DNA of 64,000 bases from Georgenia sp. M64 (GTDB lineage: Bacteria; Actinomycetota; Actinomycetes; Actinomycetales; Actinomycetaceae), in the NCBI RefSeq assembly GCF_038049925.1, contig NZ_CP145809.1, positions 2,886,599-2,950,598 of the forward strand, in the 5' to 3' direction. Both the position numbers and the translations under genes were made by a program. Positions 1-19,411 of the stretch are shown one piece after another (position 1 is the first letter of the stretch; each line of letters opens with the position of its first letter). Below the pieces are notes generated by a model. It was not told where the DNA came from, did not search any database, and saw only the letters and a list, made by a program, of their open reading frames with translations.

Positions 1-888
1 CCACGGGTCACCACCGGCGGCGACAAACAGTCCGATTGCTGCCGGGACGGCCTCGGCGGCCGGCAGGCCCGCCCCGATGACGTCGGCGATCCGCCGCGTC
101 GCGACGTCCAGCGACGACGCGCTCGCCCCGATCTCGGCGGCGAGCTCGATCCGGCGGGCGACGGACGGACCGGCGACCTCGCGGCCTCGCGTGGCACCGA
201 TCGCCGCCCCCCGCTCCGCGGACCACACCGCCGCTCGCACGACGTCGATGATGGTGACACCATCGCACAACGCCACCGACACCGCGCCGGCGACCGCAGC
301 CGCCGCCGAGACGCCGACGCTCGTGAAGTGGCTCGGGCGGCAAGTCGTCGCCGCCTCCTCGACCGCGGCCGCGGGGTCCCCAGGCCAGACGAGGCCAGCG
401 GGTGCCACTCGCATCGACCCGCCGTTGGACGCCCCTTCGGTCGTCTCGACGCCCTGCGCCCCGACTAGTTCAGGGTCCGCACCCCCCTTCAGCGCGGCGA
501 TCGCCCGGCGGGTGCTCGGACCTGCAAAGTGAGGAAAGTACTCCGGCTTGCCCGACCACTCGATCAGCATGTCCGCTACAGCACGTGCGGTGATCGTCCC
601 GCCGCCCGCGACTAAGGCCTCCGCAAGCAAGATCATCTGGCTCGAGTCGTCGGTGAACTGCCCCGCCGCGCGGCCCTTCGCGAACGGCGAGTCCTGGGGC
701 GGGGCGTGGAACCGCTCGACCCGGCCGCCGAACCGGGCGCGGATCTGGTCGATGCTGCGCTGCTCCGTCGGGGCGCCGAGGGCGTCACCGATGACGGCCA
801 TCGCGAGGGAGCCGTGGATGCGGTCCTCGAGCGCCGCACGTCCGGGCGCCGAACCCGGGACGATCAGGGTGTCAGTGGGGCTGGTCAT
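1..888 (-). CDS. ADP-ribosylglycohydrolase-family protein (partial, 3' end off window)
   Basis: The N-terminal 296 residues are present; the gene continues past the left edge. Residues 31-42 carry the family's GDALGAPTE-type segment, and FTDDSS at about 78-83 is the paired-aspartate magnesium site of ADP-ribosylglycohydrolases (DraG/ARH). Members hydrolyse N-glycosidic bonds to ribose, for example in ADP-ribosyl-arginine. The start is ATG at 888, with a GGAGG ribosome site about nine bases upstream. It begins 24 bases after the PfkB kinase stop and is the last gene visible in the urease operon. Pairing with a sugar kinase and a LacI regulator suggests a catabolic N-glycosidase rather than a protein de-ADP-ribosylase, but this is inference. 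The C-terminal metal site cannot be seen. Confidence 0.85.
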   Translation of the reverse strand, partial: MTSPTDTLIVPGSAPGRAALEDRIHGSLAMAVIGDALGAPTEQRSIDQIRARFGGRVERFHAPPQDSPFAKGRAAGQFTDDSSQMILLAEALVAGGGTITARAVADMLIEWSGKPEYFPHFAGPSTRRAIAALKGGADPELVGAQGVETTEGASNGGSMRVAPAGLVWPGDPAAAVEEAATTCRPSHFTSVGVSAAAAVAGAVSVALCDGVTIIDVVRAAVWSAERGAAIGATRGREVAGPSVARRIELAAEIGASASSLDVATRRIADVIGAGLPAAEAVPAAIGLFVAAGGDPW

Positions 889-912
889 GACGTTGTACCT
901 CCAGAGGTAAGG

Positions 913-1917
913 TCAGGCTGTGGTCAAGAGGGCACCCCGCGAGCCCACGACGCCGAGGGTGACGGCGGCGGCCTCCGCCGCCCTCGCCATCGTCGGACCG
1001 ATCGGGTGACCGGCGAGGAGACAGGCCACGAACGTCCCCGCGAACGAGTCGCCCGCGCCCGTGGAATCTACGACGCCTACGGGCCGAGCGGGCTGCCGTA
1101 GCGCGCGCCACGCGCCTGTGCCGTCCCCGTGGACGACGAGCGCCCCGCCGGACCCGAGCGTGAGGACGACCAGGCGAGCCCGTCCGGGGACTCCGACGCG
1201 GAGCATGTCCGCCGCGGCCAGAGCGGGGTCTTCGAATCCGGTGAGCCCGCGCGCGCCGCCGGCGTTGGTCACGACGATGTCGGCGTCCGTCGCCAGCTGC
1301 CGCGCCCGCGCGGTATCGTCCCGGACGAAACTCCCCTCGATGTCGACGCTAGCGAGTGCGCCGTGCAGACGGGCAATGTCGATGAGTTCCGCCGAGAACG
1401 AGATGTCGCCTAGGACGTGTAGCAAACGTGTGCCCTGCAACAGGTCGAGCGAAACGTCGGTGCGCCTGGGCAGCGACGCGGGTGTGCGCGCGCCGAGGAG
1501 CGCCTTTTCCCCCGTGGCGTCGAGCGCGACCGCGCACCACCACGTGACACCCCCCTGCTCGACGTGGACGTGCCGCGTGTCAACGCCGCGCGCTTCGAGG
1601 TCCGCAAGGCACTGACGCCCGAAGGCGTCCGAGCCCACGCGTGAGACGAGGGCGAGCCGGGCGCCGGGAAGGGCGCGGGTGGCCGCGACGGCGAAATTCG
1701 CGCCCATGCCACCGCCGAAGACACCGAGGTGCTCGCCGATCGCCTTCTCATCGCGGCCGGGCAGGGCGTCGACCCGCACCATGAGATCGACGCCGGTGTC
1801 ACCCACGACCACGACGTCATGCTCTCGCGGTGCTGGCAGCGCAGGCAGGAGGTCACTCACGGTGCTGTTCGGGTCGAGGTGGCGACCGGTCGGGACCTGG
1901 ATCTCCGACGTGCTCAT
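913..1917 (-). CDS. PfkB-family carbohydrate kinase (ribokinase-like)
   Basis: A 334-residue member of the ribokinase/PfkB superfamily, which phosphorylates sugars or nucleosides with ATP. The N-terminal sugar-binding GGG-GANFA segment follows the first strand. The signature DSTGAGDSF starts at about residue 284, putting the catalytic base at D290. The ATG at 1917 overlaps the ureD stop (ATGA), so the kinase is translationally coupled to urease maturation genes, which is an unusual neighbour for a urease. The ADP-ribosylglycohydrolase-like gene follows closely. The substrate cannot be read from sequence; ribose or another sugar released by that neighbour is the simplest reading. Confidence 0.9.
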   Translation of the reverse strand: MSTSEIQVPTGRHLDPNSTVSDLLPALPAPREHDVVVVGDTGVDLMVRVDALPGRDEKAIGEHLGVFGGGMGANFAVAATRALPGARLALVSRVGSDAFGRQCLADLEARGVDTRHVHVEQGGVTWWCAVALDATGEKALLGARTPASLPRRTDVSLDLLQGTRLLHVLGDISFSAELIDIARLHGALASVDIEGSFVRDDTARARQLATDADIVVTNAGGARGLTGFEDPALAAADMLRVGVPGRARLVVLTLGSGGALVVHGDGTGAWRALRQPARPVGVVDSTGAGDSFAGTFVACLLAGHPIGPTMARAAEAAAVTLGVVGSRGALLTTA

Positions 1918-2753
1918 GCGGACCTCCCCACCGCAGCGAGGACCGACGTCCCCCGGGTGGCTGTCGCGGCGGCCGGCTTGGGGGGCCGCGCCAGGGCGGC
2001 CCGCATCGCCGCGGCGACGCGCTCGGCCACCTCGCGCAGCTCGCGTCCGCTCGTCGCCGCGATTCGGACGAGGACACCGGCGTCGTTCGGCAGTCGCATC
2101 CCGGCGATGTAGCAATCTCTGCCGCCGAACTCAGGCCCCACGATGGGAAGCCGGCACCCGGGCTCGGCGATCGCGACGACTTGGCCGACCGCGATGAAGC
2201 GGGCGACCCTGCCCGGCATGCGGTCCCAGGGACCGGTCGAGTTCGTGTCGTGGACGACCAGCTCATCCCCCAGATAGACGCGCAGCTCGCTCGTGTACCG
2301 CCGGAACGACCGGCCCGACTCGCCTTGCAGGGCGATCACGGCGTCACCGAGCAGCGCGCGTCCGCCGTCGGACAACCGCACCGTCGTCGTCTGCTCGTAG
2401 ATCGCTCCGGGGAAGAGGATGCGCGGCTCCGGGACATGGTCGAACACTCCGGCGGCACCCACCAGAACGTCGGTAACCTCAGCCGCGGCTGCGTCACCCG
2501 TGGCACGGTGGACGGACGGCGCTCCCTGCGAGCGCAGCATGGCGTGGGCGCCCGCACCGACGACGAACCGCGCCGTCGTCCGGTCACCGCTGTTCAGGGT
2601 GCCCGACGCGCTCTGCAGCGTGACGACGGACGCCTCGGGGAATTCCCGCGAGCGGAGTTCCCGGGCCACGAAGAACGGCCAGGAGAACCGCCGGCGGACA
2701 AGGCTCGTCCCGCCCGGCAGGGCGGCGAACTCGAGCAGCAGCTGGGAGTCCAC
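1914..2753 (-). CDS. ureD: urease accessory protein UreD
   Basis: About 279 residues, matching the UreD/UreH family. UreD binds apo-urease and, with UreF and UreG, forms the complex that delivers nickel and carbonates the active-site lysine. Recognisable family segments include the early SLVRRRFSWPF region, the central GDRTTARF stretch and the C-terminal arginine-rich segment. The start chosen is GTG at 2753, two bases after the ureG stop. Another in-frame GTG at 2780 would overlap ureG, so the exact start is uncertain. The stop overlaps the kinase start. It is last of the maturation genes in the order E-F-AB-C-G-D. Confidence 0.88.
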   Translation of the reverse strand: MDSQLLLEFAALPGGTSLVRRRFSWPFFVARELRSREFPEASVVTLQSASGTLNSGDRTTARFVVGAGAHAMLRSQGAPSVHRATGDAAAAEVTDVLVGAAGVFDHVPEPRILFPGAIYEQTTTVRLSDGGRALLGDAVIALQGESGRSFRRYTSELRVYLGDELVVHDTNSTGPWDRMPGRVARFIAVGQVVAIAEPGCRLPIVGPEFGGRDCYIAGMRLPNDAGVLVRIAATSGRELREVAERVAAAMRAALARPPKPAAATATRGTSVLAAVGRSA

Positions 2754-2755
2754 GG

Positions 2756-3370
2756 CTACTGGAACAACACGTTCTCGCACAGGTGGTCCACGACCTCCTG
2801 AACGCCCGTCGCGGTGCGGCAAGAGGTCACAACGACCGGCTTCCCGCGGCGCACCTCCAGCGCCTCGCGCTCCATCTGCTCGATGTCGACCCCGACGTAC
2901 GGGGCGAGGTCGGACTTGTTTATGACGAGCAGGTCACACCGAACCACACCAGGACCACGTTTGCGTGGGATGTCCCCTCCGCCAGCGGTGTCGATGACAA
3001 AGAGCCAGTAGTCCACGAGGTCGGCCGAGAACGTCGACGCGAGATTGTCGCCCCCGCTCTCCAGCAGCACGATGTCGGTGTCCGGGTGCTGCGCGAGCAT
3101 CCGGTCCATCGCGTCGAGATTCAACGTGGGGTCCTCGCGGATGACAGTGTGCGGGCATGCCCCCGCCTCGACGGCGGCGACCCGCTCGGGGTCGATGACG
3201 CCCGAGGCCCGCACGCGCCGTGCATCCTCGTCGGTCACGAGGTCATTGGTGATCACCGAGACCGACAGGCCGAGCGCCTGCAAGGCCGGGATCAGACTCT
3301 CGACCAAGGCGGTCTTCCCGGACCCCACGGGTCCACCGATGCCCACCCGAGCAGCGGGTAGCACGTTCAT
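2756..3370 (-). CDS. ureG: urease accessory GTPase UreG
   Basis: A 204-residue SIMIBI-class GTPase that supplies nickel to urease using GTP. Visible motifs are the P-loop GGPVGSGKT (residues 12-20), the metal-binding CPH within [11 protein letters not shown] at about residue 72, the [12 protein letters not shown] stretch, and the guanine-specificity motif [10 protein letters not shown]. Length and motifs are typical, so nickel loading looks intact. The ATG at 3370 follows the ureC stop by eight bases, and its AGGAG ribosome site overlaps that stop, indicating coupling. Confidence 0.97.
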
Positions 3371-3378
3371 CTCTTCTC

Positions 3379-5085
3379 CTAACGCAGCAGGTAACGGCGG
3401 GCGAGCGGGACCTCGGTGACGCCGACCACGTCGATCTGTTCGCCGTCGACCCGGACGGTGAAAGTCCGCGGGTCCACCTCGATGGCCGGGAGCGCGCTGT
3501 TGCGAACCATGTCGTGCTTGGTGAGGTGGCGGGTGCTCGTGATGGGGATGACCGGCTTGGCCGTCTCGAGCCGGTCGAGCAGCCCATGCTGCAGCGCCAC
3601 GCGCGAGACGAAGATCGCCCCCAGGCGCGCGGCCGCGTCACCGAACGCCCCGAAGTTCGGACCCTGGATTACGGGCTCGGACATCGGCAGGCTCCCGTTG
3701 GCGTCGCCGAGTGCCGCCCACGCCATGAACCCGCGCTTCAGCACGGCGATCGGCTTGATGCCGAAGGACTCGCGGGGCCAGAGCACGAGGTCGGCAAACT
3801 TACCCTCCTCGACCGAGCCCACGTGGTCCGCGATGCCGGCTGCGATCGCCGGGTTGATCGTCAGCTTGGCGACGTAGCGCTTGATCCGCTCGTTGTCGCC
3901 GGGCCCAGTCTCCTCCGGGAGGCGACCGCGGCGGTCTTTCATGACGCTCGCAAGCTGCCAGCAGTTGGCAACGTTCTCCGCGAGGCGGCCCATGCCTTGC
4001 GTGTCGGTCGCGAAGATCGAAATCGCTCCGATGTCGTGCAGGTGGTCCTCAGCCGCCATCGACTGCGCACGGATCCGCGCTTCCCCGAAGGCGAGGTCCA
4101 CCGCCGAGTCGAACCGCAGGTTGTGGCCGACCATCGCCATGGGCAATCCCTCCTCAAGAGCCGCGGGCGTGTAGGGGTTCGTCGGGTTGGTGGACGACGG
4201 GATCACGTTCGGGTAGGAGCAGACCCGGAGCAGGTCCGGGGCGTGACCCCCGCCTGCTCCCTCGACGTGGTACATGTGGATCGTCCGACCGCTGACGACC
4301 CGCATCGTGTCCTCGGCGAAGCCGAATTCGTTGATCGAGTCAGTGTGCAGGTGCACCGAGAAGTCGTGTGCGTCGGCCGCGCGCAACGAGCCGTCGATGA
4401 CCGAGGGCGCCGCACCGAAGTCCTCGTGCACCTTGACCGACATCGCTCCGCCGGCTACGGAGGCAACTACGGCACGCGGGTCCGAACTTCCCCGGCCGAG
4501 GACGCCGAAGTTGACCGGGGTCCCGCTCGTCGACCGAAGGAACATCTCCATCGCGGGCCGGGTGCCGCCACCCGTGTCCAGCACGTGAGCTGGCGACCCG
4601 GAGCCGATGAGCGTCGTGGTGCCCCCGGCCATCGCCTGTGCGGCTTGCTCCTGCGACTGAATGTGGGCGTGCGCCTCGATTGCCCCTGCCGTCACGATCA
4701 GACCGTCCCCGGCGATGATCGAGGTCGAATTCCCGACGACGAGGCGTGGGTCGACGCCCGGCATGGTCCGGGGGTTGCCCGCGCGCCCCACCGCGACGAT
4801 GCGCCCGTCCCGGATGCCGATGTCGCCTTTGACGATCCCGATCACGGCGTCAAGGACCGTGGCGCTCGTGATGACGACGTCCAGGCAGCCATCCTCGTAG
4901 GTCGCCTCGCCCGCGATGCCCTCACCGTCCCGCAGCGTCTTCCCGCCACCCAGGATGAGCTCGTCACCGCGCGCGGCGTGGTCCTGCTCGATCTCCGCGA
5001 ACAGGGAGGTGTCCCCAAGCCGGACCAGATCCCCCGTGGTCGGCCCGTACATGGATACATACTGCGTCGACTCAATCGAAGTCAC
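3379..5085 (-). CDS. ureC: divergent urease alpha subunit UreC
   Basis: A 568-residue catalytic subunit of a urease-type nickel amidohydrolase. GTG at 5085 is chosen because AGGAAG lies six bases upstream and the usual family N-terminus ([13 protein letters not shown]) follows. The nickel ligands are kept: H139 and H141 in an HAH motif, carbamylated K218, H247, H273 and D361. Three positions differ from ordinary ureases. The flap motif, normally Cys-His-His, is G320-H321-N322. The first histidine pair is HAH rather than HIH. The usual NESGF is NEFGF. H321, the catalytic acid, remains. It may still hydrolyse urea or may accept a different amide. It overlaps ureAB by 14 bases. Confidence 0.93.
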
Positions 5086-5779
5086 TGCGCACTTCCTTTC
5101 CGACGTACCCACGCTCATGAGCGCGGGCCAACGCCTCGCACCGTATGTCCTCGTCGTCCAGCCGGCCCTCCGTCAGGCCGGCGAAGCCCCGCACATCGCG
5201 CGTACCCCGCAGGTCGACCAGACCGACGCGCTTGGCCACACCGGGTTCGAAACGCACCCCTGAGCCGGCAGGGACTGCGAGCCGACGGCCGAAGGCCGTC
5301 TCACGGTCAAACAGAAGCGCGCGGTTCACCTCGAAGAAGTGCGTGTGACTTCGCACCTGAATGTCGCGGTCTCCGACATTCACGACATCGATCTCGACGA
5401 CAGGGGCCCCTTCCAGGACGGTGATCTCCTGCGACGCCGAGACCACTTCTCCCGGCACGACGCCCTCGTCCGAGGTCCGCAGGACGGGGTCGAACAGGAT
5501 GAGCAGTTTGGTGCCCTCGCGCATAGGGAGCTCGATAAGTACCTTCTTCAGCATCGAGCGCACGCCACTCTCCACGTGCTCGTCGGTGAGCAACTGGTAG
5601 GCGCGGTCCCGGATCTCGCCATACGCCAGACCCTGCCGCGCCATGGTCATGGCCTCGTCGGTCAGGTACGCAATCGCCTCCGGATGGCTCAGACGGATGC
5701 CGAGCCGGAGGTTGCGTCGAGCGAACTCGGCCGCCGAGAAGAGAACGAGGCGGTTGAGCTCGGTGGGTGTGAGGTTCAT
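5072..5779 (-). CDS. ureAB: fused urease gamma-beta subunit
   Basis: A 235-residue fusion of the two small structural subunits. Residues 1-100 match UreA (gamma), beginning MNLTPTELNRL. Residues 106-235 match UreB (beta), with the RSHTHFFEVN motif at 143-152 where classical UreB has GSHYHFFEVN. Such fusions are known in some actinobacteria and Helicobacter. An AAGGAGGAG ribosome site overlapping the ureF stop gives ATG at 5779. The product assembles with UreC into the urease-like core. The beta portion is slightly diverged from the classical sequence, consistent with UreC. Confidence 0.94.
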   Translation of the reverse strand: MNLTPTELNRLVLFSAAEFARRNLRLGIRLSHPEAIAYLTDEAMTMARQGLAYGEIRDRAYQLLTDEHVESGVRSMLKKVLIELPMREGTKLLILFDPVLRTSDEGVVPGEVVSASQEITVLEGAPVVEIDVVNVGDRDIQVRSHTHFFEVNRALLFDRETAFGRRLAVPAGSGVRFEPGVAKRVGLVDLRGTRDVRGFAGLTEGRLDDEDIRCEALARAHERGYVGKEVRSDFD

Positions 5780-5788
5780 TGCTCCTCC

Positions 5789-6460
5789 TTAGGAGGCGAA
5801 AAGCCTGGAGTCACGCAGGGCGTGGCGCTCCATGGCCAAGTCATGGATTACGGACCAGGACGTCGGAGCGTTCGGCACTGGGGTCCTGAGCAGGTCCTCG
5901 AGGACGTCTACCGTCCCGACCAGCGCTTTTTGCGCCGCGAGGGCGCCCACCTTGCCAAGCCGCACGGCGGCCGACGCGAGGCTGCTCGCACTCGACCAGC
6001 CGCTCACGGCACACGCCGAGGCCTCGTCCATGCCGCACTCGCGGAAGACCAGGCCCTGCACCACGGCGAGGTGCCCGTCCGCGCGGCCGTCCTGCACGCG
6101 GGCCGCAAAGTCCTCGGTCGCCGGAAACCGCATGCGCGACCACGGACGAAGGAAGGTGCGGCCGGCGCGGGTGCTGGTCTCCCGGACGACGGCACTGACC
6201 GTCGCCGCGGTGCAGTACCGGTCGACGCCCACCCGCTCCTCTTGTGTGGCGGCGACGAAGCTCCGCTGGACGAAGTAGCGGTCGAATCCGGCCCAGCGGC
6301 CCGTCAGGTACCACGCGAGCACGTCCTCCAGCGGGTCGTCCCCGAGGACCTCGTCCTGGTACAGCTGTTCAAGGCCCCACGAGAAGGCGAACGACCCGGA
6401 GGGCAGTGCGCTGTCGGAGTGCAGGAGCGCGGCGAGGAAGCCCTTGTCCACGGGGCTCAT
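5789..6460 (-). CDS. ureF: urease accessory protein UreF
   Basis: A 223-residue all-helical accessory protein. UreF bridges UreD and UreG during nickel insertion. The N-terminal HSDSALPSGSFAFSWGLE segment is the family hallmark (normally DSALPIGSFSHS). ATG at 6460 overlaps the ureE stop as ATGA, so the two are translationally coupled. The upstream reading frame is open but has arginine-rich, noncoding-like composition, so the longer start was rejected. Confidence 0.9.
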   Translation of the reverse strand: MSPVDKGFLAALLHSDSALPSGSFAFSWGLEQLYQDEVLGDDPLEDVLAWYLTGRWAGFDRYFVQRSFVAATQEERVGVDRYCTAATVSAVVRETSTRAGRTFLRPWSRMRFPATEDFAARVQDGRADGHLAVVQGLVFRECGMDEASACAVSGWSSASSLASAAVRLGKVGALAAQKALVGTVDVLEDLLRTPVPNAPTSWSVIHDLAMERHALRDSRLFAS

Positions 6461-6903
6461 AGCTCCGCGACCTCGATCTGCCCGGAGTCCAGGAACGTGG
6501 TGATGCGTGTGAGGTACTCGTCGGCGGGAGCGTCGAGGAGTACGACCAAGCGGTCGCCCTCGGTCCGCACCCGCCAGTGGAGGTGGCCGGCGTGCCACCC
6601 GAGCTGGATGCCACCGGCCACGTCCGTGGCGCGCAGCACGAGAGTCTCGGGCGCGCCGCGGTGCAGGACGACGGCACGGTCCGGCTCCAGGAGGAGCACG
6701 AGCCCGTCGATGTCGTTGGGATCCTGGTCGAGAACAATACCGAACTCGGTGCCCCTGTCACTCGTCGCCCGGAACCGCCGCCGCCCGACCAGGGGCTCGG
6801 GCAGGTAAATCCGCTCGACGCGATTCGCATGCTCAAGGCGGTGGAGCTCGTCAGCGAGAGCCCCGTCGAACTCGCGCCCGACAGAGCCGGTAATCGTCTC
6901 CAT
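6457..6903 (-). CDS. ureE: UreE-like urease nickel chaperone
   Basis: A 148-residue protein with UreE architecture: an N-terminal peptide-binding domain and a C-terminal metal-binding domain. The latter contains WHAGHLHW, with H104, H107 and H109, corresponding to the conserved nickel-histidine region of UreE (HLGNRH). The histidine-rich tail of some UreE proteins is absent. ATG at 6903 is preceded by AAGGAGGA at good spacing. It begins 14 bases after the regulator gene's stop, so regulator and urease genes form one operon. Overall similarity is weaker than for UreG, so the name is less certain. Confidence 0.8.
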   Translation of the reverse strand: METITGSVGREFDGALADELHRLEHANRVERIYLPEPLVGRRRFRATSDRGTEFGIVLDQDPNDIDGLVLLLEPDRAVVLHRGAPETLVLRATDVAGGIQLGWHAGHLHWRVRTEGDRLVVLLDAPADEYLTRITTFLDSGQIEVAEL

Positions 6904-6917
6904 GCATTCCTCCTTCG

Positions 6918-7997
6918 TCACGGTCGACCCGTGGACCGGCGGGAGCTGTCGCGCACGATCAGCTCTACGGGCAGGACACGGTGCGCCTGCGCACGGTCCT
7001 CACCGTGAAGCAGGGCGACCAGATCGGCCACCGCCTCCTGCCCAAGCTTGTGGTAGTCCTGCTGCACGGTCGTGAGGCGCGGCCGCAAGTAGCCCGACTC
7101 CTCGGTGTTGTCGAAGCCGACGACCAGGACGTCGTCGGGCACCGAGACCCCGGTGTCCGCGAGCGCCGAGAGCGCGCCGATCGCCATCCGGTCGTTGGCG
7201 ACGAACAACGCGTCGACGTCCGCGCCGTCGATGAGTTCCCGGGCGGCCCGGTACCCGGACGACACGGACCAGTCCCCGCGCACCGACAGCCCCACCTGTA
7301 GGCCGTGCCGCTGCAGCGCCTCGAGCCATCCTGCGCGACGCTGCTCGGCCGAGGGCCAGTCCTCTGGACCTGCGATGTGGGCGATGCGACGGGCGCCCTG
7401 CTCGATCAGGTGCTCCGTTACGAGTGCTGCACCGCCCTGCTGATCCATGGTGATCGAGGGCAACGCGCCGTGCCCCGCGCCCTCCACCACGATCGTGGGT
7501 ACGCCGATCGCCATGGCCGCCAGCGCCCGCTCGCTTTCGCGCGTGGGAGCGAGGGCGATGAGGCCTTCCGCCTCCCGGAAGGGGTCGAGCCTCGAAAAGG
7601 AGCTCTTCGTCGCGGCCTCGAGCGACGGTATCGTCGCGACCGAGACGTGATAGCCCGCATCCTGCACCGCGCTCTGGAGCACGAACGACAAGGACGCCGG
7701 GCTAAAGATCTCGGCCAGGGTCAGGATGCCGATAGTGTGCGAGCGCCGAGTCGCCAACGCCCGGGCGGCATGGCTGGGCTCGAAACCCAGATCGAAGATC
7801 GCTCGGACGACACGGTCCCGGGTGCGGGCGTGCACGGCGCCGGCGCCCGCGCCGTTCAGCACCCGCGAGACGGTGGCACTCGAGACGCCGGCCTTGGCCG
7901 CGACGTCGCGGATGGTGGCCCGGCCGACCTCGCCGTGCCGGCCGTCGATCACCCTCGACGTCGACGCAGCGACCTGCACCTCAGGCTCGTCCTCCAC
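6918..7997 (-). CDS. LacI/GalR-family transcriptional regulator
   Basis: A 359-residue regulator. The DNA-binding helix-turn-helix and hinge lie at residues 27-50 (ATIRDVAAKAGVSSATVSRVLN). A periplasmic-binding-like effector domain follows, ending with the DVLVVGFDNTEES segment typical of sugar-responsive members. The first 25 residues are unlike the family, so GTG at 7997 could be replaced by a later GTG. It is the first gene of the urease operon and sits 63 bases downstream of a LacI-type palindrome, so autoregulation is likely. A sugar-sensing regulator over urease genes is unusual, since nitrogen or nickel regulators are the rule, and it argues for a sugar-containing inducer. Confidence 0.95.
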   Translation of the reverse strand: MEDEPEVQVAASTSRVIDGRHGEVGRATIRDVAAKAGVSSATVSRVLNGAGAGAVHARTRDRVVRAIFDLGFEPSHAARALATRRSHTIGILTLAEIFSPASLSFVLQSAVQDAGYHVSVATIPSLEAATKSSFSRLDPFREAEGLIALAPTRESERALAAMAIGVPTIVVEGAGHGALPSITMDQQGGAALVTEHLIEQGARRIAHIAGPEDWPSAEQRRAGWLEALQRHGLQVGLSVRGDWSVSSGYRAARELIDGADVDALFVANDRMAIGALSALADTGVSVPDDVLVVGFDNTEESGYLRPRLTTVQQDYHKLGQEAVADLVALLHGEDRAQAHRVLPVELIVRDSSRRSTGRP

Positions 7998-8060
7998 CTC
8001 GGTGCCCCCCCCCTCTCATCACCTCGCTACCAAGACCGACTCTGATTCGCGTGCAGCATA

Positions 8061-8076
8061 CTGTAACCGGTTCCAG
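8061..8076. promoter_or_regulatory. putative LacI-family operator for the urease operon
   Basis: The 16-base sequence CTGTAACCGGTTCCAG is a palindrome with a central CG and only one mismatched pair. That is the form bound by LacI/GalR dimers. It lies 63 bases upstream of the regulator gene, in the only long noncoding stretch before the operon (7998-8266). I see no other gene in that stretch, and no convincing -35 box around the operator. Confidence 0.65.
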
Positions 8077-8266: not shown

Positions 8267-11200
8267 CTAGAGGCTTCGCCCGTGCGTGCGAGCACCGCGC
8301 GGTCCAGTCCCCGGCGCCCGGGTGAGGGCTCGGGCGCGGTGCAGTGCGTCGGCGGCGTGACGCCGGTCGCGTTCCTGGGCGAGGGTCTGGGTCGAGGGTC
8401 CGAGCGGCGCGGGACCGGTGATGGTGTACCGGTCGCGGTAGGCGGCGACGACGGCCAGCTCGGCGAGCCACCGTTCCCGGCCGCCTCCCGCCGGCCGCTC
8501 ACCGATGCGGCACACCCACGGCGCCCGGTCGCGCACCGCGGCCTCGGCGAGGCCTCGGGCGCGGGTCTCGATGAGCTCGCGGCGTTCGGCCAGGGCGCGG
8601 GCGGCGTCGGCGGGCAGCGGCCCGGTCACGGCCGGGATGAGTCCGGCGATGAGGTCCGGGGTCGTGCCGGGTGCGGGTCGCCGGGTGGCTCGGGCGAGGC
8701 GGGTGGTGAGGACGGCGGCGATGTCGTCGGCGTCGAGCAGGGTGCGCTGGGCGACCAGGCGTGGCAGGAGGGTGTCGAGGTCGTGGTGGTTGGCCTCGGC
8801 GCGGCGCAGCTCCGCGGTGAGGACGGCGAAGGCCTCGGACGAGGTGATCTGGTCGGCTTCGGCCGGCGTAAGTCCCCCCGCGCTGATGAGGGTGTCGGTG
8901 ACGAGCCTGGTCCAGCGGCTCTGTTGGGCGGTGGTGACGATGGTCTCGTACTCGGCCGCGAGCTGGGCGATGCTCGTCCAGCTCTCTTGCTCGGCGGTGA
9001 TGGTCTGGTGGGCGGAGAGCTCGAGCCCGGAGTGGTTGAGCACCCCGAACAGCACGGTCCGCGCGGAGGTGTCCGCCTCGGCGGGGGTGGCATGGAGGGG
9101 GTCGGGCTGGTCGAGGGCGACGTAGGCGGTGTTGGCGAGGCGGCCGCGGGTCATGGACACGTAGAGGTTCTCGCGGGTGGTCAAGGCGGAGACGACCACG
9201 TGCGCGGTGTCGACGGTCAGGCCCTGGGCGCGGTGGGCGGTGACGGCGTAGCCGAGGTCGACGTACCGGCCGACGTACCCGGCAGGGAGCGTCACCCGCG
9301 CGCCCTCTCCGGGCCGGCGGACCTCGAGCGTGCCGTCGTGTCGGACGTGGGTGACGGTCCACCGGTCGCCGTTTCGGACCCACGCGCCCGGGCCGGTGCG
9401 GAGGCGACGGTCGTTGCGGCGGGTGATGACCACATCACCCACGGATGCGCGTGCCTCGTCGCGCAACCGGACCTCGCGGCCGGTGGCGGTCAGGCCCTGC
9501 TGGATGCGTTCGGCGCGGGCGCGCTCGTTGAGCTGCCGTACGGACTCCGCGGCCTCGGTCACCAGGATGGACGACCGGCCGGCGGCCAGGTCGTCCTGCC
9601 ACGCCTGGTAGGCGGCGTCGGTCATGGCCTCGGTGGTCCCCTCGACGATCCGGCCGTGGCCCGCGTATGCGTCGATCGCGGCCGGGTCACCGTCGCGCAG
9701 GGCGAGGGAGGCGTCCTTCTCCCACGCGTGGACGAAGCGCCGCACCTCCACCAGCTGTGCCAGGTCGCCGCCGCGGGCCTGGGCGAGCATGTTGAACGCG
9801 CCGCCGGCGTCGACGGACTGCAGCTGGGCCGGGTCCCCGACGAGGACGACCTTCGCGCCGACCTCGCCGGCGCGGGTCACGATGGTCTCCAGGGTGCGGG
9901 TAGAGGCCAGGGTGGCCTCGTCCAGGATGACGAGCTGGCCCGGGCGGAAGTCCGCCCTACCACGGGCGTGGTCGTGCACCCATTTCGCGGTGTTCTCGCA
10001 CCCGATGCCGATGTCCTCGGCGAGCACCTGCGCGGCGGCGGCCGACGGCGCCATCCCGATCACGGACCCGGGCCCGTGCGCCGTGGTCCAGGCACCGGCC
10101 AGGGCGGCCATCGCGGTGGACTTCCCGGTCCCGGCCGGACCGACCAACAGATCCAGGCGTCGGCCCGAGGTGAGGATCTGCGTGATCGCGGCGGCCTGCT
10201 CCCCGCCGACCACCACACCGTCACCCCGGCCGCCCTGCACGGTCTCGACGATGGGTGGCGGGACGACGAGCGCCGGTTCGTGGTCCTCGGCCAGGGCGAG
10301 CAGCCGGTCCTCCGCGGCGAGCAGACGCTCGCTCGAGTAGTACGTGGAGTGCCGCGGCCGCAGGGTGCTGGTGCCGTCGTCGCGCCGCATCCCCGCCGGG
10401 GTGGACGCGACCTCGGCCGGGGTGAGCGGGACCGACCGCCGGGTGGCGGCGTCGGTGATGAGCGCGATCGCCTGTTCGCGGTCCGCGGCCGACTGGAAGC
10501 GCCAGCCCATGGTGCGCCGCGAGGCCTCGGCCCAAAGGTTCCAGAGCCGCCAGGTCGACCGCCGCTCCGCCACCGCGTCCACGACGTCGGCGGCGGCCTG
10601 GTCGATCAGGAACATCGGCACCGACTCCCCGGTGAGGACCGGCACCGGCTGCATCGTGGTGAGGGTGCGCGCCCACTCGGTCGGGTCACCGCCCACCAGG
10701 TCCCGCGCGCGCGTCCGCCACTCGGCCGTCAGCTCCGACAACGCCCGGACGGTCTTCTCAGGCCGGGTCTCCAGGGTGGCCGCCGCGCGCAGCTGCACGA
10801 TCCGTCGGCCGGACGGGCGGCGGCCGTGCGCGGCCACGTAGGCGGCGATCTTCGCATCGGTGGCGACGTCGATCGCCCGGGCCCGGCTGGAGAACTGCCC
10901 GATCAGAGCTTCACTGACGCCGCGGATCTCCCACTGGCCGGTGCGGTCCACGCCACGGTCGCGCCGCTCCCACGACAGCCCGAACGAGCCCGTGAGCCGG
11001 TCGGCCAGCACCGCGTTGTAGTGCTCGGACAGGCCGACCATCGCGTGGTGGACGGCCCGGGAGTCCAAGGTCCGCCACCGCCCATCGTGGGCGGTCATCA
11101 CCTTGTTCGACACCACGACGTGGGTGTGGAGCTGGGGGTCGTTCGCGCGGGAGTCCCAATGGTCATACGCCGTCGCGGCGACCCCGACGACGGGCACCTG

Positions 11201-11788
11201 CGCGATCCCGGCGTGCCCGGTGCGGGTGGCGGCGACCTCCCGCTCGAAGAGGTCGAGTACCTGCGCCACGGCGGCGTGGTGGGCCTCGACGATCAGCTCC
11301 TGGGTATTCGCGTCAGCCAGGCCCCACAGCACCGACACCGACTTCGGCACCGAGAACGTCAGATCAAACCCCGCGGTCGCGGTCTGCGGCCCCCGGACGG
11401 CCTGCTCGCCCTGGATCCGGGTCACCTCGGCGTCGAACTCCCCCGCCAGCAGGGCCCGGTCCACCCGCGCGGTCAGCGCCGCCGTCCGCTCCGCCACGCT
11501 CGGGTACTCCCGGAACGGCCGGCCCAGGCTGGCCCCCGTGACCGGGTCGCTCCCGCGCCCCAACAGCATCTGCAGCTGCTCCGGTGTCACCGCCATGCCC
11601 GGGCGCAGCTCCCCAGCCCCGAAGAAGACGACCCCCGTGCCCAGCCACACCCCAGGCGGGGTACCCGCCTCGGTGAAGTACCGCGTAAACCCGGCCGCCC
11701 GGACGGCGTCGCCGTCGCCCTGCACCACCGACCGCAGCAGATACCCGTACCCCTTCCCCGCCGAGACCACCCGCATCGAGACCGTCAC
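8267..11788 (-). CDS. MobF-family relaxase/helicase (TrwC/TraI-like)
   Basis: A 1173-residue conjugative relaxase-helicase that would nick oriT and unwind DNA for transfer. GTG at 11788 gives the family N-terminus MTVSMRVVSAGKGYGYLL, with candidate nicking tyrosines Y14 and Y16. The metal histidine triad is H210, H221 and H223 (DPQLHTH). A superfamily-1 helicase follows, with Walker A GPAGTGKS at about 550, Walker B VILDEAT and the late motifs TAHRAQG and VSMTRGR. The reading frame stays open about 200 bases upstream, so a longer N-terminus is possible. No coupling protein or mating-pair genes are visible, so it probably mobilises rather than self-transfers. Confidence 0.93.
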   Translation of the reverse strand: MTVSMRVVSAGKGYGYLLRSVVQGDGDAVRAAGFTRYFTEAGTPPGVWLGTGVVFFGAGELRPGMAVTPEQLQMLLGRGSDPVTGASLGRPFREYPSVAERTAALTARVDRALLAGEFDAEVTRIQGEQAVRGPQTATAGFDLTFSVPKSVSVLWGLADANTQELIVEAHHAAVAQVLDLFEREVAATRTGHAGIAQVPVVGVAATAYDHWDSRANDPQLHTHVVVSNKVMTAHDGRWRTLDSRAVHHAMVGLSEHYNAVLADRLTGSFGLSWERRDRGVDRTGQWEIRGVSEALIGQFSSRARAIDVATDAKIAAYVAAHGRRPSGRRIVQLRAAATLETRPEKTVRALSELTAEWRTRARDLVGGDPTEWARTLTTMQPVPVLTGESVPMFLIDQAAADVVDAVAERRSTWRLWNLWAEASRRTMGWRFQSAADREQAIALITDAATRRSVPLTPAEVASTPAGMRRDDGTSTLRPRHSTYYSSERLLAAEDRLLALAEDHEPALVVPPPIVETVQGGRGDGVVVGGEQAAAITQILTSGRRLDLLVGPAGTGKSTAMAALAGAWTTAHGPGSVIGMAPSAAAAQVLAEDIGIGCENTAKWVHDHARGRADFRPGQLVILDEATLASTRTLETIVTRAGEVGAKVVLVGDPAQLQSVDAGGAFNMLAQARGGDLAQLVEVRRFVHAWEKDASLALRDGDPAAIDAYAGHGRIVEGTTEAMTDAAYQAWQDDLAAGRSSILVTEAAESVRQLNERARAERIQQGLTATGREVRLRDEARASVGDVVITRRNDRRLRTGPGAWVRNGDRWTVTHVRHDGTLEVRRPGEGARVTLPAGYVGRYVDLGYAVTAHRAQGLTVDTAHVVVSALTTRENLYVSMTRGRLANTAYVALDQPDPLHATPAEADTSARTVLFGVLNHSGLELSAHQTITAEQESWTSIAQLAAEYETIVTTAQQSRWTRLVTDTLISAGGLTPAEADQITSSEAFAVLTAELRRAEANHHDLDTLLPRLVAQRTLLDADDIAAVLTTRLARATRRPAPGTTPDLIAGLIPAVTGPLPADAARALAERRELIETRARGLAEAAVRDRAPWVCRIGERPAGGGRERWLAELAVVAAYRDRYTITGPAPLGPSTQTLAQERDRRHAADALHRARALTRAPGTGPRGARTHGRSL

Positions 11789-12110
11789 ACCCACCAGGTG
11801 CGCGACCCAATCCACCTCGGGTGCCAGAGGTGTGAGGACCACCACCGGCGACCCGTCCCGGACCACGCCGACCGGGCGGCCGGCACGCGGACAAGCCGTC
11901 CACGCGAAGGTCGGCTCCGCCACGCCTCTCCGGGTGACACCGGACGGACGGCACGTCGGTGGTACGGGCCTCTGGCGTCGTGGGCACACCTGGTAGTCGA
12001 ACGGGCCTTCTCGGACGTTGTCGCCGGCGTGGGCGCGCTGGTCGACGAGCTACCGCAGGAAGGCGGAGAGGAGTGACCTCAGTCCGGTCGCCAACACGCG
12101 GCGACCTTCT

Positions 12111-12436: not shown

Positions 12437-13633
12437 TCACTTCTCGTCGTTGCTGTCACGAGGAGCGAGTGACTCGAGGATCTCGGCGGTCACCGGGTTC
12501 ACCTTCTCGTCAGGCTCGATGTAGTGCTCCTTAGTGATCTGGGATGAGGTGTGGCCGAGCATCTCGGCCGCGAGGTCCGCACCGCCCGCCCGGTCGATCA
12601 CCGTCGCGACGGTCCGACGGAACGAGTGCGGCGTGACACCGGCGATGCCGGCCTCGTCCAGGATGGCGCGCAGACGCCGGCGCACGTTGTTGGTCGTCAA
12701 TGGGGTGTGGTTGCGGCTGAAGAAGATCAGGTGCTCCGGGTCCTCGGCGACGAGCGCGACGAGCCGCTGGCGCAGCACCTCAGCGGTGAACGACGGCACA
12801 GCGACGGTTCGGGCCGACTTCGCCGTCTTGGGGTGCGGCTGCCGGTGGGTCGGCTTACCTGTCGGCGAGACGATCGTCCCGCTGAGCCGGACGGTGGCGG
12901 GCGAGACGGTGACGTCGACGTCACACTTGCGGATCGCCAGCACCTCGCCGATCCGGGCCGAGGTGCCGAGCATGACCTCGATGATCTGGTCGAGCTGGCC
13001 GTCCGGCGGTGGTCCGGGCATCCCGGGCTCTCGGCGCCATCCCCGCACCGCGGCCCGGATCGCGTCGACCTGGTCCAGGGTCAGGGCCATCGCCCGAGTC
13101 GGCGGCTTCCTGAGCCGGGCCGTGTCCCGGACCGGGTTCTCCCTGAGCGCGTCGTAGCGGACCGCCAGGCCGAGGGCGAGGCTGAGGACGGTGCGCGCCT
13201 GCTTGGCCATGCTGTAGCTCCTGGTCGTGGCCAGCGCTTTGATGAACCTGTCGACCCTGCGGACGCTGATCTCGCGCAGCGTGTAGTGCTCGAAGGCCGG
13301 CATCACCAGCTGCCGCATGTTGCGTTCGTAGAGCGCCCTGGTGCTCGGCGCGAGCTTGCCCTCGAGATCGAGGTCCTCGAGCCAGATGTCGACGAGGTGC
13401 CCGAAGGAGGTGTCGGGGGTCAGCTCGCCGGTCCCGGTGGCGTAGTCGGCCCGGCCGGCGAGCTTCTCCTTCAGGCGATGCTCTGCCGCCTTGCGCGTGG
13501 TGCCGCTGGCCTCGACCCGCCGGAGCCGACCGTCGAGGTCTCTGACGCGCACCCGGGCTCGGACCACCCCGCCCGCCAGTGCGGTGAACTCGATGTCGCC
13601 GAACGTGCCGATCGGGGTGCGGGGCCGTGCCAC
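12437..13633 (-). CDS. tyrosine recombinase (phage-type integrase)
   Basis: A 398-residue site-specific recombinase. The arm-binding and core-binding N-terminal domains are followed by the catalytic domain with R227 (ARIGEVL), lysine near 270, H336 and R339 (HSFRR), H361 (LGHTS) and nucleophile Y371. All catalytic residues are present. GTG at 13633 is followed by a normal N-terminus. It lies six bases after the excisionase gene and about 400 bases from the 3' end of an initiator tRNA gene, the usual layout for an integrase that uses a tRNA as attachment site. Confidence 0.96.
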   Translation of the reverse strand: MARPRTPIGTFGDIEFTALAGGVVRARVRVRDLDGRLRRVEASGTTRKAAEHRLKEKLAGRADYATGTGELTPDTSFGHLVDIWLEDLDLEGKLAPSTRALYERNMRQLVMPAFEHYTLREISVRRVDRFIKALATTRSYSMAKQARTVLSLALGLAVRYDALRENPVRDTARLRKPPTRAMALTLDQVDAIRAAVRGWRREPGMPGPPPDGQLDQIIEVMLGTSARIGEVLAIRKCDVDVTVSPATVRLSGTIVSPTGKPTHRQPHPKTAKSARTVAVPSFTAEVLRQRLVALVAEDPEHLIFFSRNHTPLTTNNVRRRLRAILDEAGIAGVTPHSFRRTVATVIDRAGGADLAAEMLGHTSSQITKEHYIEPDEKVNPVTAEILESLAPRDSNDEK

Positions 13634-13639
13634 CTCAGC

Positions 13640-13867
13640 TCACCTCGTCAGATGATCGCGTGGCGTCGCGGACCGCTGGGCGTCCACCCACGCCGCGACG
13701 TCCGAGACGGCGAACTTCAGGTGCCGGCCGACGCGGAACCCGCGCGGGCCGTGCCCGGTCTGGCGCCAGTCGTAGACCGTCCGGACGGGTACGCCGAGGT
13801 ACTCGGCAAGGTCCTGGACGCCCAGGAGCGGGTCCAGCCCGCTCCACTGTGTCGTTGAGGTTCCCAT
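13640..13867 (-). CDS. excisionase-like helix-turn-helix protein
   Basis: A 75-residue protein of the MerR-like HTH_17 type. The segment LLGVQDLAEYLGVPVRTVYDW followed by GFRVGRHLKFAVSDVAAWVD is the usual excisionase/AlpA form. ATG at 13867 is chosen; the frame is open further upstream, but the extra residues lack family similarity. It precedes the integrase by six bases, so both are probably co-transcribed. It likely bends DNA at the attachment site to direct excision. Confidence 0.88.
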   Translation of the reverse strand: MGTSTTQWSGLDPLLGVQDLAEYLGVPVRTVYDWRQTGHGPRGFRVGRHLKFAVSDVAAWVDAQRSATPRDHLTR

Positions 13868-13959
13868 GCCTGCCAGGTGCGCCGCACGCACCGTGGCAGC
13901 CGTGACACCCCGGCAGCGACCGGCGTCGACCGCACTGACGACCCGATCCGACCTCGACG

Positions 13960-14004
13960 TAGAGATCAAAGTGGAGGGTTTGTGGAGGGTGGATCAAATC
14001 TCTA
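13960..14004. repeat. clustered short repeats near the integration end (possible Xis/Int arm sites)
   Basis: Seven-base inverted repeats TAGAGAT (13960) and ATCTCTA (13998) flank two direct copies of GTGGAGGGT at 13971 and 13982, exactly 11 bases apart. GATCAAA also occurs twice (13964 and 13992). One-helical-turn spacing between the excisionase gene and the tRNA suits cooperative binding by excisionase or integrase. AT content is higher than in the surroundings. Confidence 0.5.
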
Positions 14005-14043: not shown

Positions 14044-14048
14044 ATTCG

Positions 14049-14122
14049 TAGCGGGGGCAGGATTTGAACCTGCGACCTCCGGGTTATGAGCCCGGCGAGC
14101 TACCGAACTGCTCCACCCCGCG
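14049..14122 (-). tRNA. initiator tRNA-fMet (CAU)
   Basis: The 74-nucleotide cloverleaf lacks an encoded CCA. The anticodon is CAU. Initiator features are present: an unpaired first base (C1 against U72) and three consecutive G-C pairs at the bottom of the anticodon stem (GGG/CCC). The T arm GCAGG-TTCAAAT-CCTGC is regular. The next genomic bases at the 3' end are CGA, so CCA must be added after transcription. Its 3' end faces the excisionase/integrase genes, making it the likely integration target. Confidence 0.97.
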
Positions 14123-14193: not shown

Positions 14194-17100
14194 TCAGCCC
14201 TGGGCGGCCTCCTCGGTGGGCTCCGCCGTCGGCTCGGCGGTGGCCTCGCCGTCGGGCGCGACCTCCCCGGTCGCCTCGGCGATCTCGGCCTCGGCGGCGA
14301 GCGCGTCCTCGATGGCGGACTGGAGGCGCTGCTGCGCCTCGCCGTAGGCCGTCCAGTCGCTCTCCGCGAGAGCGGTGTTGCCGTCGGCGATCGCCTGCTG
14401 GGCCTCGGCCAGGGCGTCGGTGAGGCGCTCCTGGGCGGCGGCGGGGACCTCGGTGGTGCCCTGGGGCTCCTCGCCCGCAGGGGCGTCCTCCGGCGGGGCC
14501 ACCTCGGCGTCGCCGGCCTCGGCACCGGAGTCGCCGCCGAAGACCTCGTCGAGGGCCTCGTCGAGCGTCGACGCGAAGCCGATCTCGTCGCCGAAGGAGA
14601 CGAGCACGCGCTGCAGGAGGGGGTAGGACGTGCCCTGGGCCGACTGGACGTAGACGGGCTGGACGTACAGCAGGCCGCCACCGACGGGCAGGGTGAGGAG
14701 GTTGCCGAGCTGGACGTCGGAGTTGCCCTGCCGCAGCAGGTTCAGCTCCGAGGAGACGCCCGGGTTGGAGTTGAAGTTGTTCTGGACCTGGCCGGGACCG
14801 GGCACGGTGAGGTCCGAGGGCAGCTCGAGCAGACGCATCTGCCCGTAGTCCTCGCGCACCTCGCCGGCGGCGTCCCCTGTCTCGGAGTCCACGGCGAGGA
14901 ACCCGGTGAGGATGTTGCGGTCGGTCTGGCCACCCGGGATGAAGCTCGACGTCAGGGAGAACTGCGCCTCGTCCTGGGCGGGCATCTGCATCGTGAGGTA
15001 GTACGGCGGCTGCGGCACCCCGGCGGCGGCCGTCGGGTCGGTCGGGATGTTCCAGAAGTTCGACCCGGAGTAGAACGAAGCCGCGTCGGTGACGTGGTAC
15101 TGGCTGAGGAGCTGCCGCTGGACCTTGAACAGGTCCTCGGGGTAGCGCAGGTGGCTCATGAGGTCGCCGCTGATGTCCTCGACCGGCTGGACGTGGTCGC
15201 CGAAGATGTTCTGCCAGGTGTCCAGGATCGGGTCGTCCTCGTCCCACTCGTAGAGGGTGACGTCGCCGTCGTAGGCGTTGACGACCGCCTTGACCGAGTT
15301 GCGGATGTAGTTCACCTGGGCCGGCGCCACGCCGACGGCGGCCGGCACCCCGTTGACCGTGGTGAGGGAGTCCGTCGTCGCCTCCTCGAGGGACTCGCGC
15401 GCGGAGTAGGGGTAGTCGTTCGTCGTGGTGTACCCGTCGACGATCCAGACCAGCTCCTTCGGCGTGGCCTCGTCACCGTCCATGTCGACGACCGCCGGGT
15501 AGGCCTTGGCGTCGAGGGTGAGGTACGGGGCGACCTTGGACACGCGCTGGTGCGGGTCGCGGTCGAAGAGGATCTGCGACTCCTCGGTCACCCGGTCGGA
15601 GAAGAGGATCTGCATGTCACCGAACTTCAGCGCGTAGAGGAGCTTCGCGGCGAAGTTGCCGATCGACGGCCCGCCGTCGCCGGTGTAGGTGTTGTTGACC
15701 GCGCCGTTGGGAGCGTCGTCGTCGGGGTAGTCCAGCTCCCACGGGTCGGTGCCCTCGGGCGCCCCCACGATGGAGTAGTCGGGGCTGAACTGGCCGAAGT
15801 AGACCCTCGGCTCGTACTCGCCGAGCTCACCGGTGCTCGGGATGCCCTGCTGGAAGAACGCCGGCCGCCCGTCCGAGCGCGTGGTGTTGCCGTACGCGGC
15901 CACCACGCCGAACCCGTGGGTGTAGACGGTCTTGTCGTTGACCCAGGTCCGCTGCTCCGCCCCGAGGCCGTCCTGGTTGAGCTCGCGGACGGCGATGACG
16001 GTGTCGCGGCTCTCGCCGTCGATCTCGTACCGGTCCACCGCCAGGGTGGTCGGGAACCCGTAGTACTGCCGGTTCTGCTGGAGCTGGTTGAACGTCGGCG
16101 AGACGATCTGCGGGTCCAGCAGGCGGATGGAGGCGGTGGACTGGCTGTCCTCACGGAGCTGGCCGGCCTCGGCCTCGGTGGTGGCCGAGTACGTCTCGAC
16201 CTCGATGTCCTGCAGGTCGTAGGCGGCGAGGGTGCCGTCGATGTTGCGCTGGATGAACTCCCGCTCGAGCTCGATCGCGTTGGGCTCGACCTGGAAGCGC
16301 TGAACGACGGCGGGGTAGGCGGAGCCCACGACGATCGCGGAGACGATCATGACCCCGATGCCCGCGACCGGCAGCCGCCAGGTGCCGCGGAAGGCGGCGA
16401 CGACGAAGAGCACGGCGACGACGACAGCGATGCCGGCGAGGATCGCCTTGGCCGGGATGTTGGCGTTGACGTCGGTGTAGGACGCCCCCGCGAAGCGGGC
16501 GTTCTCCCCCACCAGCACGGAGTACCGGTCGAGCCAGTAGCTGGCCGCGATGAGCAGGACGAACACCGCCGCGAGGATGCCCAGGTGCAGACGGGCGGCC
16601 GGGGAGATGCGCTGGGCGCGCGGCGCCAGGGAGATCCCGCCGTAGAGGTAGTGGGTCACCACGGCCGCGGCGGCGGAGAGGAACACCACGGTCATGAGGA
16701 AGGAGATGAGCATCCGGATCACCGGCAGGGTGAAGACGAAGAAGCCGATGTCCAGCCCGAACTGGGGGTCGTTGATCCCGAACTGCTCACGGTTGAGGAA
16801 CGTCAGCACCTCGCGCCACTGGGCGGACAGCGACGACCCGGCGAACAGGCCCAGGACCAGCGGCGCGCCGATCATGATGAGACGGCGCAGCGGCTCGATC
16901 GACTCGCGGTACTTGTCGAGGTTGCGCTCCTCCGGCGTCGTCGGCGGGTAGACCTGCCGCTGGGAGTAGGCGAGGTGGAGGTTGAGCCACACCGCCCCGC
17001 CCATGAGCAGGAAGCCGACGGCGAACAGCGCCGCGCGGGTGGTCCACTCACGGATGAGGACGTCGGTGAAGCCGAGCTGGTTGAACCACTGGACCTCGGT

Positions 17101-19134: not shown

Positions 19135-19180
19135 CGGGACATCATGCCCCACCTGTCTGGGAGCAACCCGGGGGCTGCCC

Positions 19181-19280
19181 GGGAGGATGCCGGGAGCCAC
19201 GGACGGCCTCGCCGGGAGGATGCCGGGAGCCACGGACGGCCTCGCCGCGAGGAGGCCGAGATCAACGGACCGGCCTCGCC
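19181..19280. repeat. 33-base minisatellite
   Basis: Two perfect adjacent copies of a 33-base unit (19181-19213 and 19214-19246) are followed by a degenerate third copy (19247-19280). They lie in the 277-base divergent gap between the PDZ protease and the metalloprotease-like gene. I see no palindrome inside the unit. Confidence 0.85.
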
Positions 19281-19411
19281 GCGAGGATCCGGGAGCTCCT
19301 GTCCCGCTCGGCAGGTGCGCCCTGAGCGAACCGGGCCCGCCCGGCGGGTCCCGGCCGGGCCCCGCCGGGACCCCGGCGGTTACCGTGGTGGTCCACGACC
19401 AAGGAGCAGCG

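Follow-up and report, generated by a model that had tools for sequence, protein, structure and literature searches.

Why would a complete urease gene cluster stand in one run with a sugar kinase and an ADP-ribosylglycohydrolase, behind a regulator of the LacI family? The question was raised by the left end of a 64,000-nucleotide stretch of the Georgenia sp. M64 genome (NZ_CP145809.1, positions 2,886,599 to 2,950,598 of a 4.18-Mb single-contig genome), referred to below as the window. A preliminary description of this DNA had proposed that the genes form a pathway for a glycosyl-urea or a related N-ribosyl amide. The nine genes give the impression of a single regulon, since their stops and starts overlap, an operator-like palindrome found nowhere else in the genome precedes them, and an ordinary urease is encoded elsewhere. 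We tentatively read the run as a mobile catabolic cargo operon whose substrate is an N-riboside carrying a urea-like aglycone, a reading in which we infer the substrate, the shared pathway, the order of the steps and the co-transcription of the genes. The LacI repressor would control a single transcript encoding a second urease (UreEFABCGD), the kinase and the glycohydrolase, and the substrate would be an N-riboside, for instance ribosylurea, or a ureido or guanidino compound linked to a sugar. A ribose-type ATP-binding cassette (ABC) importer would take up the sugar-linked urea-like compound, the glycohydrolase would cut its N-glycosidic bond, the PfkB-family kinase would trap the freed sugar as a sugar phosphate, and the urease would turn the freed urea or small urea-like aglycone into ammonia and CO2. 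Larger ureido or guanidino precursors may be trimmed beforehand by a creatinase/prolidase-fold protein that a neighbouring unit encodes.

Each of the nine genes named beforehand was present on the minus strand, and all nine products exceeded the Pfam gathering score (Table 1). The packing was as tight as had been described, every junction being an overlap or a gap of at most 24 bases. With the chosen starts, the frames overlapped by 4 to 14 bases (LacI1/UreE, UreE/UreF and UreD/PfkB by 4 each, UreAB/UreC by 14) or were separated by 2 to 24 bases (UreG-UreD 2, UreC-UreG 8, UreF-UreAB 9 and PfkB-glycohydrolase 24). The start ATG of the kinase gene overlaps the stop of ureD, and no internal stop was found in any of the cluster frames. 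The glycohydrolase gene runs over the left edge of the window, and the DNA beyond that edge gave a full length of 361 aa, of which 296 aa lie inside. UreE scored 142.3 bits against NF009752, under the cut-off of 162. The catalytic motifs examined in the glycohydrolase, the kinase and UreC were all kept.

The operator-like palindrome CTGTAACCGGTTCCAG has what we take to be the form of LacI-family operators. The pattern CTGNAACCGGTTNCAG occurred at one site in the whole genome, and the end of the palindrome coincides with the end coordinate, 8076, that the preliminary description had given to the operon. The control by LacI proposed there was borne out to the extent that LacI1, with this genome-unique pattern 63 bases upstream of its gene, is a likely autoregulator. 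Palindromes of any sequence were found in 4 of 20 control stretches of 270 bases in the window, so the mere presence of CTGTAACCGGTTCCAG is weak evidence. The promoter and terminator scan gave 1 promoter-like site against 0.4 expected and 1 terminator-like site against 2.2 expected, and a scan with Rfam returned tRNA only.

The operon lies as cargo inside an element at a tRNA-Met gene. The 3' end of this tRNA gene (35-36 bases) was found repeated at L004:8375, at about -10224 in window coordinates, and the element between the repeats measures 24,307 bases (window -10224 to 14083). In a sibling species (G682), the same tRNA-Met carries the same 35-base repeat, with an integrase 97% and a relaxase 83% identical; the cargo there differs, including a heavy-metal P-type ATPase, and urease genes were not found in it. 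An integrase, a relaxase, repeats of the tRNA end and variable cargo in a relative, the features by which an integrative mobilizable element is recognised, were all present, and the element is integrative and probably mobilizable. Third-position GC was 0.77-0.89 in the cargo genes, and 28 genes lying between 16 and 64 kb of the window had a median of 0.968, a contrast somewhat overstated because the script that selected the 28 genes favours high values. As a separate observation, the recurrence of the element backbone with other cargo has the look of a cargo-swapping element family.

Table 1. Features of the urease operon, the adjoining element genes and the neighbouring unit, with window positions (negative values lie left of the window) and profile scores
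Feature	Position in the window	L004 coordinates	Strand	Profile match or remark
ADP-ribosylglycohydrolase-family protein	1..888, continues to -197	18402-19487	-	PF03747 189.5 bits, gathering 26.2
PfkB-family sugar kinase	913..1917		-	PF00294 133.4 bits (longer frame 913-2115 scanned); GAGD motif visible
UreD accessory protein	1914..2753		-	PF01774 88.2 bits (longer frame 1914-2822 scanned); no NCBIfam match
UreG accessory GTPase	2756..3370		-	TIGR00101 233.4 bits, cut-off 204.2
UreC catalytic urease subunit	3379..5085 (start GTG 5085 or ATG 5118)		-	TIGR01792 690.5 bits, cut-off 680
Fused UreAB (gamma-beta)	5072..5779		-	NF009671 271.7 bits, cut-off 243
UreF accessory protein	5789..6460		-	PF01730 83.9 bits; no NCBIfam match
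UreE accessory protein	6457..6921		-	PF02814 27.6 bits, cut-off 26.9 (barely above)
LacI-family regulator 1 (LacI1), heads operon	6918..7997		-	PF00356 and PF13377
Operator-like palindrome CTGTAACCGGTTCCAG	8061..8076		.	63 bases upstream of LacI1
TrwC-type relaxase	8267..11989		-	PF08751 288.5 bits
Tyrosine recombinase (integrase)	12437..13633		-	PF00589
HTH_17 protein, excisionase-like	13640..13969		-	PF12728
tRNA-Met, integration site	14048..14122		-	
M24-like (creatinase/prolidase-fold) protein, 472 aa	left of window	15616-17034	same as operon	

The joint catabolic role given beforehand to the kinase and the glycohydrolase is supported by their recurrence as a pair. The TDD and DTDT (DxDT) motifs of the glycohydrolase aligned with those of ARH3 and MJ1187, motifs to which we assign a magnesium role, and the protein is a putative N-glycosidase. 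It stayed under the equivalogs of DraG (50.4 bits against 337.05 for TIGR02662) and Tri1 (49.7 against 490 for NF041672). The kinase fell within the PfkB superfamily by PF00294, under the ribokinase cut-off of TIGR02152 (110.8 against 299.65 bits) and below the cut-offs of all 20 NCBIfam models listed. Glycohydrolase matches were present in 38 genomes of the order sample, the own genome included, and the pairing count covers 29 of the 37 others: 20 of these 29 loci had a PfkB kinase on the same strand at a distance of up to about 1.5 kb, and the 9 without one include some that end at contig ends. Together with E. coli yegUV, this suggests that the two genes are a recurrent yegUV-like module. 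Fifteen pair neighbourhoods were read, comprising 9 actinobacterial ones (the better matches, some short), E. coli and 5 plasmids (5 of 33 plasmid records with glycohydrolase matches were inspected). The pair was present in all 15, including the 5 plasmid loci; the kinase query gave no match against plasmids at 1e-20. At E<=1e-62 the glycohydrolase was matched in none of 395 other sampled genomes of the phylum and in three other genomes of the earlier order sample.

The transporters beside the pair included a nucleoside permease, cytosine-type permeases, ribose-type ABC genes and other ABC systems, and a C-N hydrolase stood near it in 6 of the 15 neighbourhoods, by query proteins drawn from these same loci and from the urease loci. 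On a Pantoea dispersa plasmid (L152:150-10705), yegTUV-like genes adjoin genes annotated as 2,5-dihydroxypyridine dioxygenase, FAD monooxygenase, Asp/Glu racemase and isochorismatase-family protein, a cluster that we take to serve nicotinate catabolism; this locus is one of the 6 with a C-N hydrolase. Because nucleoside and ribose-type transporters, C-N hydrolases and this dihydroxypyridine cluster stand beside the pair, its surroundings point to N-ribosides as substrates, with an aglycone degraded by the neighbouring enzymes. Separately, an isochorismatase-family hydrolase was seen next to the pair in L118 (7198-11271), L113 and L115, and L118 and L113 also have a cytosine-type permease; the arrangement may be a unit for the breakdown of nucleosides or pyridine ribosides.

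For the urease, 62 related loci were collected, 60 from a scan of genome contigs and 2 from plasmids. UreC matches occurred in 162 plasmid records, 3 of them above 60% identity, and 2 of these 3 were inspected. A tree was made of 75 UreC proteins, with L036, L056 and L057, whose rows were misframed, broken or truncated, left out of it and of the invariance counts. The window UreC fell in a clade of 56 of the 75 with support of 100/100, and of the related loci 55 were placed in the clade and 4 outside it, 3 being unplaced. The exact place of the window UreC within the clade is unsure because its branch is long (0.55). The clade spreads over Alphaproteobacteria, Actinomycetota and Binatota-type metagenome-assembled genomes (MAGs), one of them labelled Campylobacterota. 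It is rare in the phylum, as the other matches at E<=1e-170 in 396 sampled genomes were 48-51% identical; in one related family, 2 of 299 genomes had a UreC at E<=1e-180, 70% and 68% identical. One record titled Frankia sp. RB7 (L021) had its UreC nested among Bradyrhizobium in the tree, which may reflect contamination, misnaming or transfer.

Alignment to PDB ureases and to the second UreC of the genome showed that the window UreC keeps the metal-ligand motifs (HxH, KxHED, the H in LHTD, the H in YHxEGAGGGH and the D in TDTQ) along with the His and Arg of the catalytic flap, positions that we presume to serve as nickel ligands and in catalysis; hydrolysis of urea is a candidate activity of the protein. 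Two other accounts of the gene were rejected. A decayed urease copy does not agree with the intact cluster frames or with UreC departing from only 1 of 136 columns near-invariant over the 75 ureases. A housekeeping urease of the host does not agree with the presence of another, ordinary UreC at 3.81 Mb, encoded with UrtA and UrtB, or with the UreC matches at E<=1e-100 in the other 8 genomes of the genus, which were found in 5 (all 47-49% identical) and were lacking in 3. Against the PRK13206 equivalog (cut-off 907), the window UreC scored 666.5 bits, below, and the other UreC 1025.2, above. With an ordinary urease and UrtA/UrtB already present, the urease of the element would not be needed for plain urea.

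The urease might instead act directly on a substituted urea or amide through a remodelled pocket, with the glycohydrolase acting before or after it. Glutamate (E148) precedes the first metal histidines in 56 of 56 clade rows, against aspartate in 19 of 19 others; the flap Cys before the catalytic His is Gly in the window UreC and C, A or G among clade members; one loop has 17 residues against 20 in the genome's ordinary urease; and the branch of the window UreC is long. The neighbours of clade ureases are also often amide hydrolases accompanied by importers: amidases were found at 33 of 55 clade loci and acetamidase/formamidase at 15 of 55, one or more C-N hydrolases, as far as the queries used could show, at 42 of 55 clade loci and 45 of all 62, and an ABC-ATPase cluster at 38 of the 62. 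The C-N hydrolases at 42 of 55 loci speak for the N-riboside reading as well. However, the residues at the metal-binding and catalytic positions match those of solved ureases, the flap Cys seen in the three PDB ureases shown is also present in many clade members, the shorter loop occurs in some ureases outside the clade, and amidases could themselves release urea or ammonia. The flap Cys is not known to be essential for urease activity, and its replacement was not counted as excluding the protein from the urease alpha subunits. Direct action on a substituted substrate is, in our estimation, distinctly improbable.

A transporter had been suspected beyond the left edge of the window, and ribose-type ABC genes were found there, with the binding-protein gene interrupted in this strain. 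Past the glycohydrolase, on the same strand, follow a second LacI gene (LacI2), the M24-like protein, a binding-protein gene, a two-domain ABC ATPase, two permease genes and a fragment of the nickel permease NicO. One permease matched BPD_transp_2 and the other was 34% identical to the first, and the importer would be a ribose-type (sugar-type) ABC system. Weak matches to its binding protein (24% identity) were found in 2 of the 62 related urease loci. The palindrome TGTTGCGCAACA precedes LacI2 and, with one mismatch, also the M24-like gene; the pattern had 2 matches in 19.8 kb against 0.01 expected, having been picked after the sequence was viewed, and it was not found in L117, whose LacI is 54% identical. 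Because the palindromes of LacI1 and LacI2 differ, there are probably two regulons, one of the urease, kinase and glycohydrolase genes under LacI1 and one of the M24-like and importer genes under LacI2.

The M24-like protein gave no Pfam match at 0.001; its Creatinase_N score of 15.5 bits stayed under the gathering score of 22, and an M24 match was not obtained. Among the nine members of its family, Creatinase_N was found in 6 and M24 in 5 at E<=0.1. The gene is uncommon in the order, where 3 of 297 genomes, the own included, have it, and 6 of 64 plasmid records with matches were inspected. In L116 a relative stands with ribose-type ABC genes and LacI, and in L117 with LacI and other transport genes; urease genes were found in neither locus. 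More generally, members of the family turned up in several gene runs for sugar uptake, accompanied by LacI or ROK regulators.

The protein would allow a guanidino route, in which it would make urea from an imported sugar-linked guanidino compound, the urease would consume the urea, and the glycohydrolase and kinase would recover the sugar. A profile of the nine relatives reached prolidases and Xaa-Pro aminopeptidases (aminopeptidases P), and in its alignment to prolidase, Asp stood at neither bridging metal-ligand place in 9 of 9 sequences; we take the two aspartates to be the metal ligands of M24 proteins. Creatinase is metal-free and makes urea, so the missing ligands are in keeping with this route, as is an arginine-deiminase-family gene one gene away from an M24-like relative, in an ABC-transporter run with a LacI gene. 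Yet the M24-like gene of the element belongs to a separately regulated unit, and 0 of 8 M24-like relatives had urease genes in the flanks covered. We regard the guanidino route as very unlikely.

A conserved pathway was not borne out by the comparison of loci. Searched with several queries each at E<=0.001, with the control loci matched, 0 of the 62 related urease loci, 45 of which have flanks of 8 kb or more to the left and right, held the glycohydrolase, the kinase or the M24-like protein. Homologous UreC clusters without the kinase and glycosidase, which the preliminary description had itself named as the observation that would speak against it, are thus what was found, and a conserved nine-gene pathway was rejected. 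The coupling of urease and pair is known here from this one element, and none of the titles listed in literature searches showed the combination of urease, ADP-ribosylglycohydrolase and sugar kinase. The sequence comparison suggests that the operon was assembled from separate modules. A newly assembled pathway is left unrefuted by the count of 0 of 62 and is favoured by the gene overlaps and the shared operator-like site.

Assembly from modules could also have been opportunistic. The urease, the riboside pair and the importer with the M24-like gene would then have been collected on one element, partly in one transcript, and would serve separate pathways, the urease acting on free or amide-derived urea and the pair on an unrelated riboside. 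The modules do occur apart, as the urease was without the pair or the M24-like gene in 62 of 62 loci and urease genes were found neither in the 15 pair loci nor in the 8 M24-like loci within the flanks covered; the cargo is exchangeable, as the sibling species shows; and LacI1 and LacI2 are separate, with different palindromes. Against this, ureD and the kinase gene overlap at stop and start, the pair lies behind the same operator-like site, in front of LacI1, as the urease genes, and a plain urease with urea-transporter genes is already present in the genome. Opportunistic assembly is a real possibility that we nevertheless consider doubtful.

Several further observations weigh, with the separate occurrence of the modules, against a shared riboside pathway. 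The window UreC departs from 9 of 211 columns near-invariant in its clade, the second most of the 56 rows, so its function may have shifted; a free-urea end product would need no altered urease. An IS110-type transposase gene (L004:13719-15152) interrupts the substrate-binding-protein gene, and NicO is a fragment. The importer and the M24-like gene stand under their own LacI and palindromes, and a similar set is found without urease in L116, so these genes need not share the urease pathway. The nearest relative of the glycohydrolase with long flanks (L108, 54%) has a sugar symporter and GH43-like neighbours, not nitrogen enzymes. Finally, one source ties E. coli yegTUV to glycogen and ADP-glucose, not to ribosides, and calls the functions of its genes unclear (PMC10819704).

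The proposal of a glycosyl-urea or N-ribosyl amide pathway stood in part. The anatomy, the LacI regulator, the transporter and the recurrent pair agree with it, as does a yeast precedent for the catabolism of ribosylurea to urea (PMC7530994), and its conservation (0 of 62) did not hold. A more specific form, in which the YegU-like enzyme would be a ribosylurea (N-glycosyl-urea) hydrolase working with a sugar kinase and a dedicated urease of a urea-derivative clade, as a horizontally mobile bacterial counterpart, made of different enzymes, of yeast URC4 and the urea-degrading steps, appears rather unlikely; if true, it would also give a function to the widespread yegUV-type pair. A search with DUF1688, presumably the URC4-type family, gave 0 matches in the genome and also 0 in 14 control genomes. 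The operon offers a candidate enzyme set for bacterial breakdown of ribosylurea, which in yeast is an intermediate of pyrimidine catabolism. It makes testable the substrate of the recurrent YegU/YegV-type pair, and whether the urease clade found beside amidases and importers acts on compounds other than free urea.

Among known systems, E. coli yegTUVW consists of a nucleoside-type symporter, the ADP-ribosylglycohydrolase YegU, the PfkB kinase YegV and a GntR regulator. As there, the glycohydrolase of the element, 31% identical to YegU over 329 residues, adjoins a PfkB kinase on the same strand, with a local repressor and a transporter. Unlike yegTUVW, the element has LacI in place of GntR, the order kinase then glycohydrolase and a joined full urease cluster, and it has no YegT-like symporter in the operon, the ABC importer lying beyond the second LacI. 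Like the nickel urease operons with UreABC and UreDEFG, it holds structural and accessory genes with conserved metal and catalytic positions; it differs from them in its separate clade, fused UreAB, altered flap residue, LacI head and the sugar enzymes inside.

The same urease gene order was found in clade relatives that lie in gene runs for amide catabolism, namely in Herbiconiux (L025), a Microbacteriaceae MAG (L007), Rhizobium plasmid pRt932 (L067) and Pleomorphomonas plasmid pSM30-1 (L068). Herbiconiux and the Microbacteriaceae MAG, the nearest by identity, have the urease with PTE-like and glutamine-amidotransferase-like proteins, and Herbiconiux additionally has LacI, NicO, ribose-type ABC genes and two amidases. 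Unlike the element, the four loci have between them amidases, PTE-like, acetamidase/formamidase or annotated allophanate hydrolase genes, and none has the glycohydrolase, the kinase or the M24-like protein. In the URC route of uracil catabolism in yeast, ribosylurea is converted to urea by URC4 and urea to ammonia by URC3/URC5 (PMC7530994). The route proposed for the Georgenia element would follow the same logic, from ribosylurea through urea to ammonia, with different enzymes.

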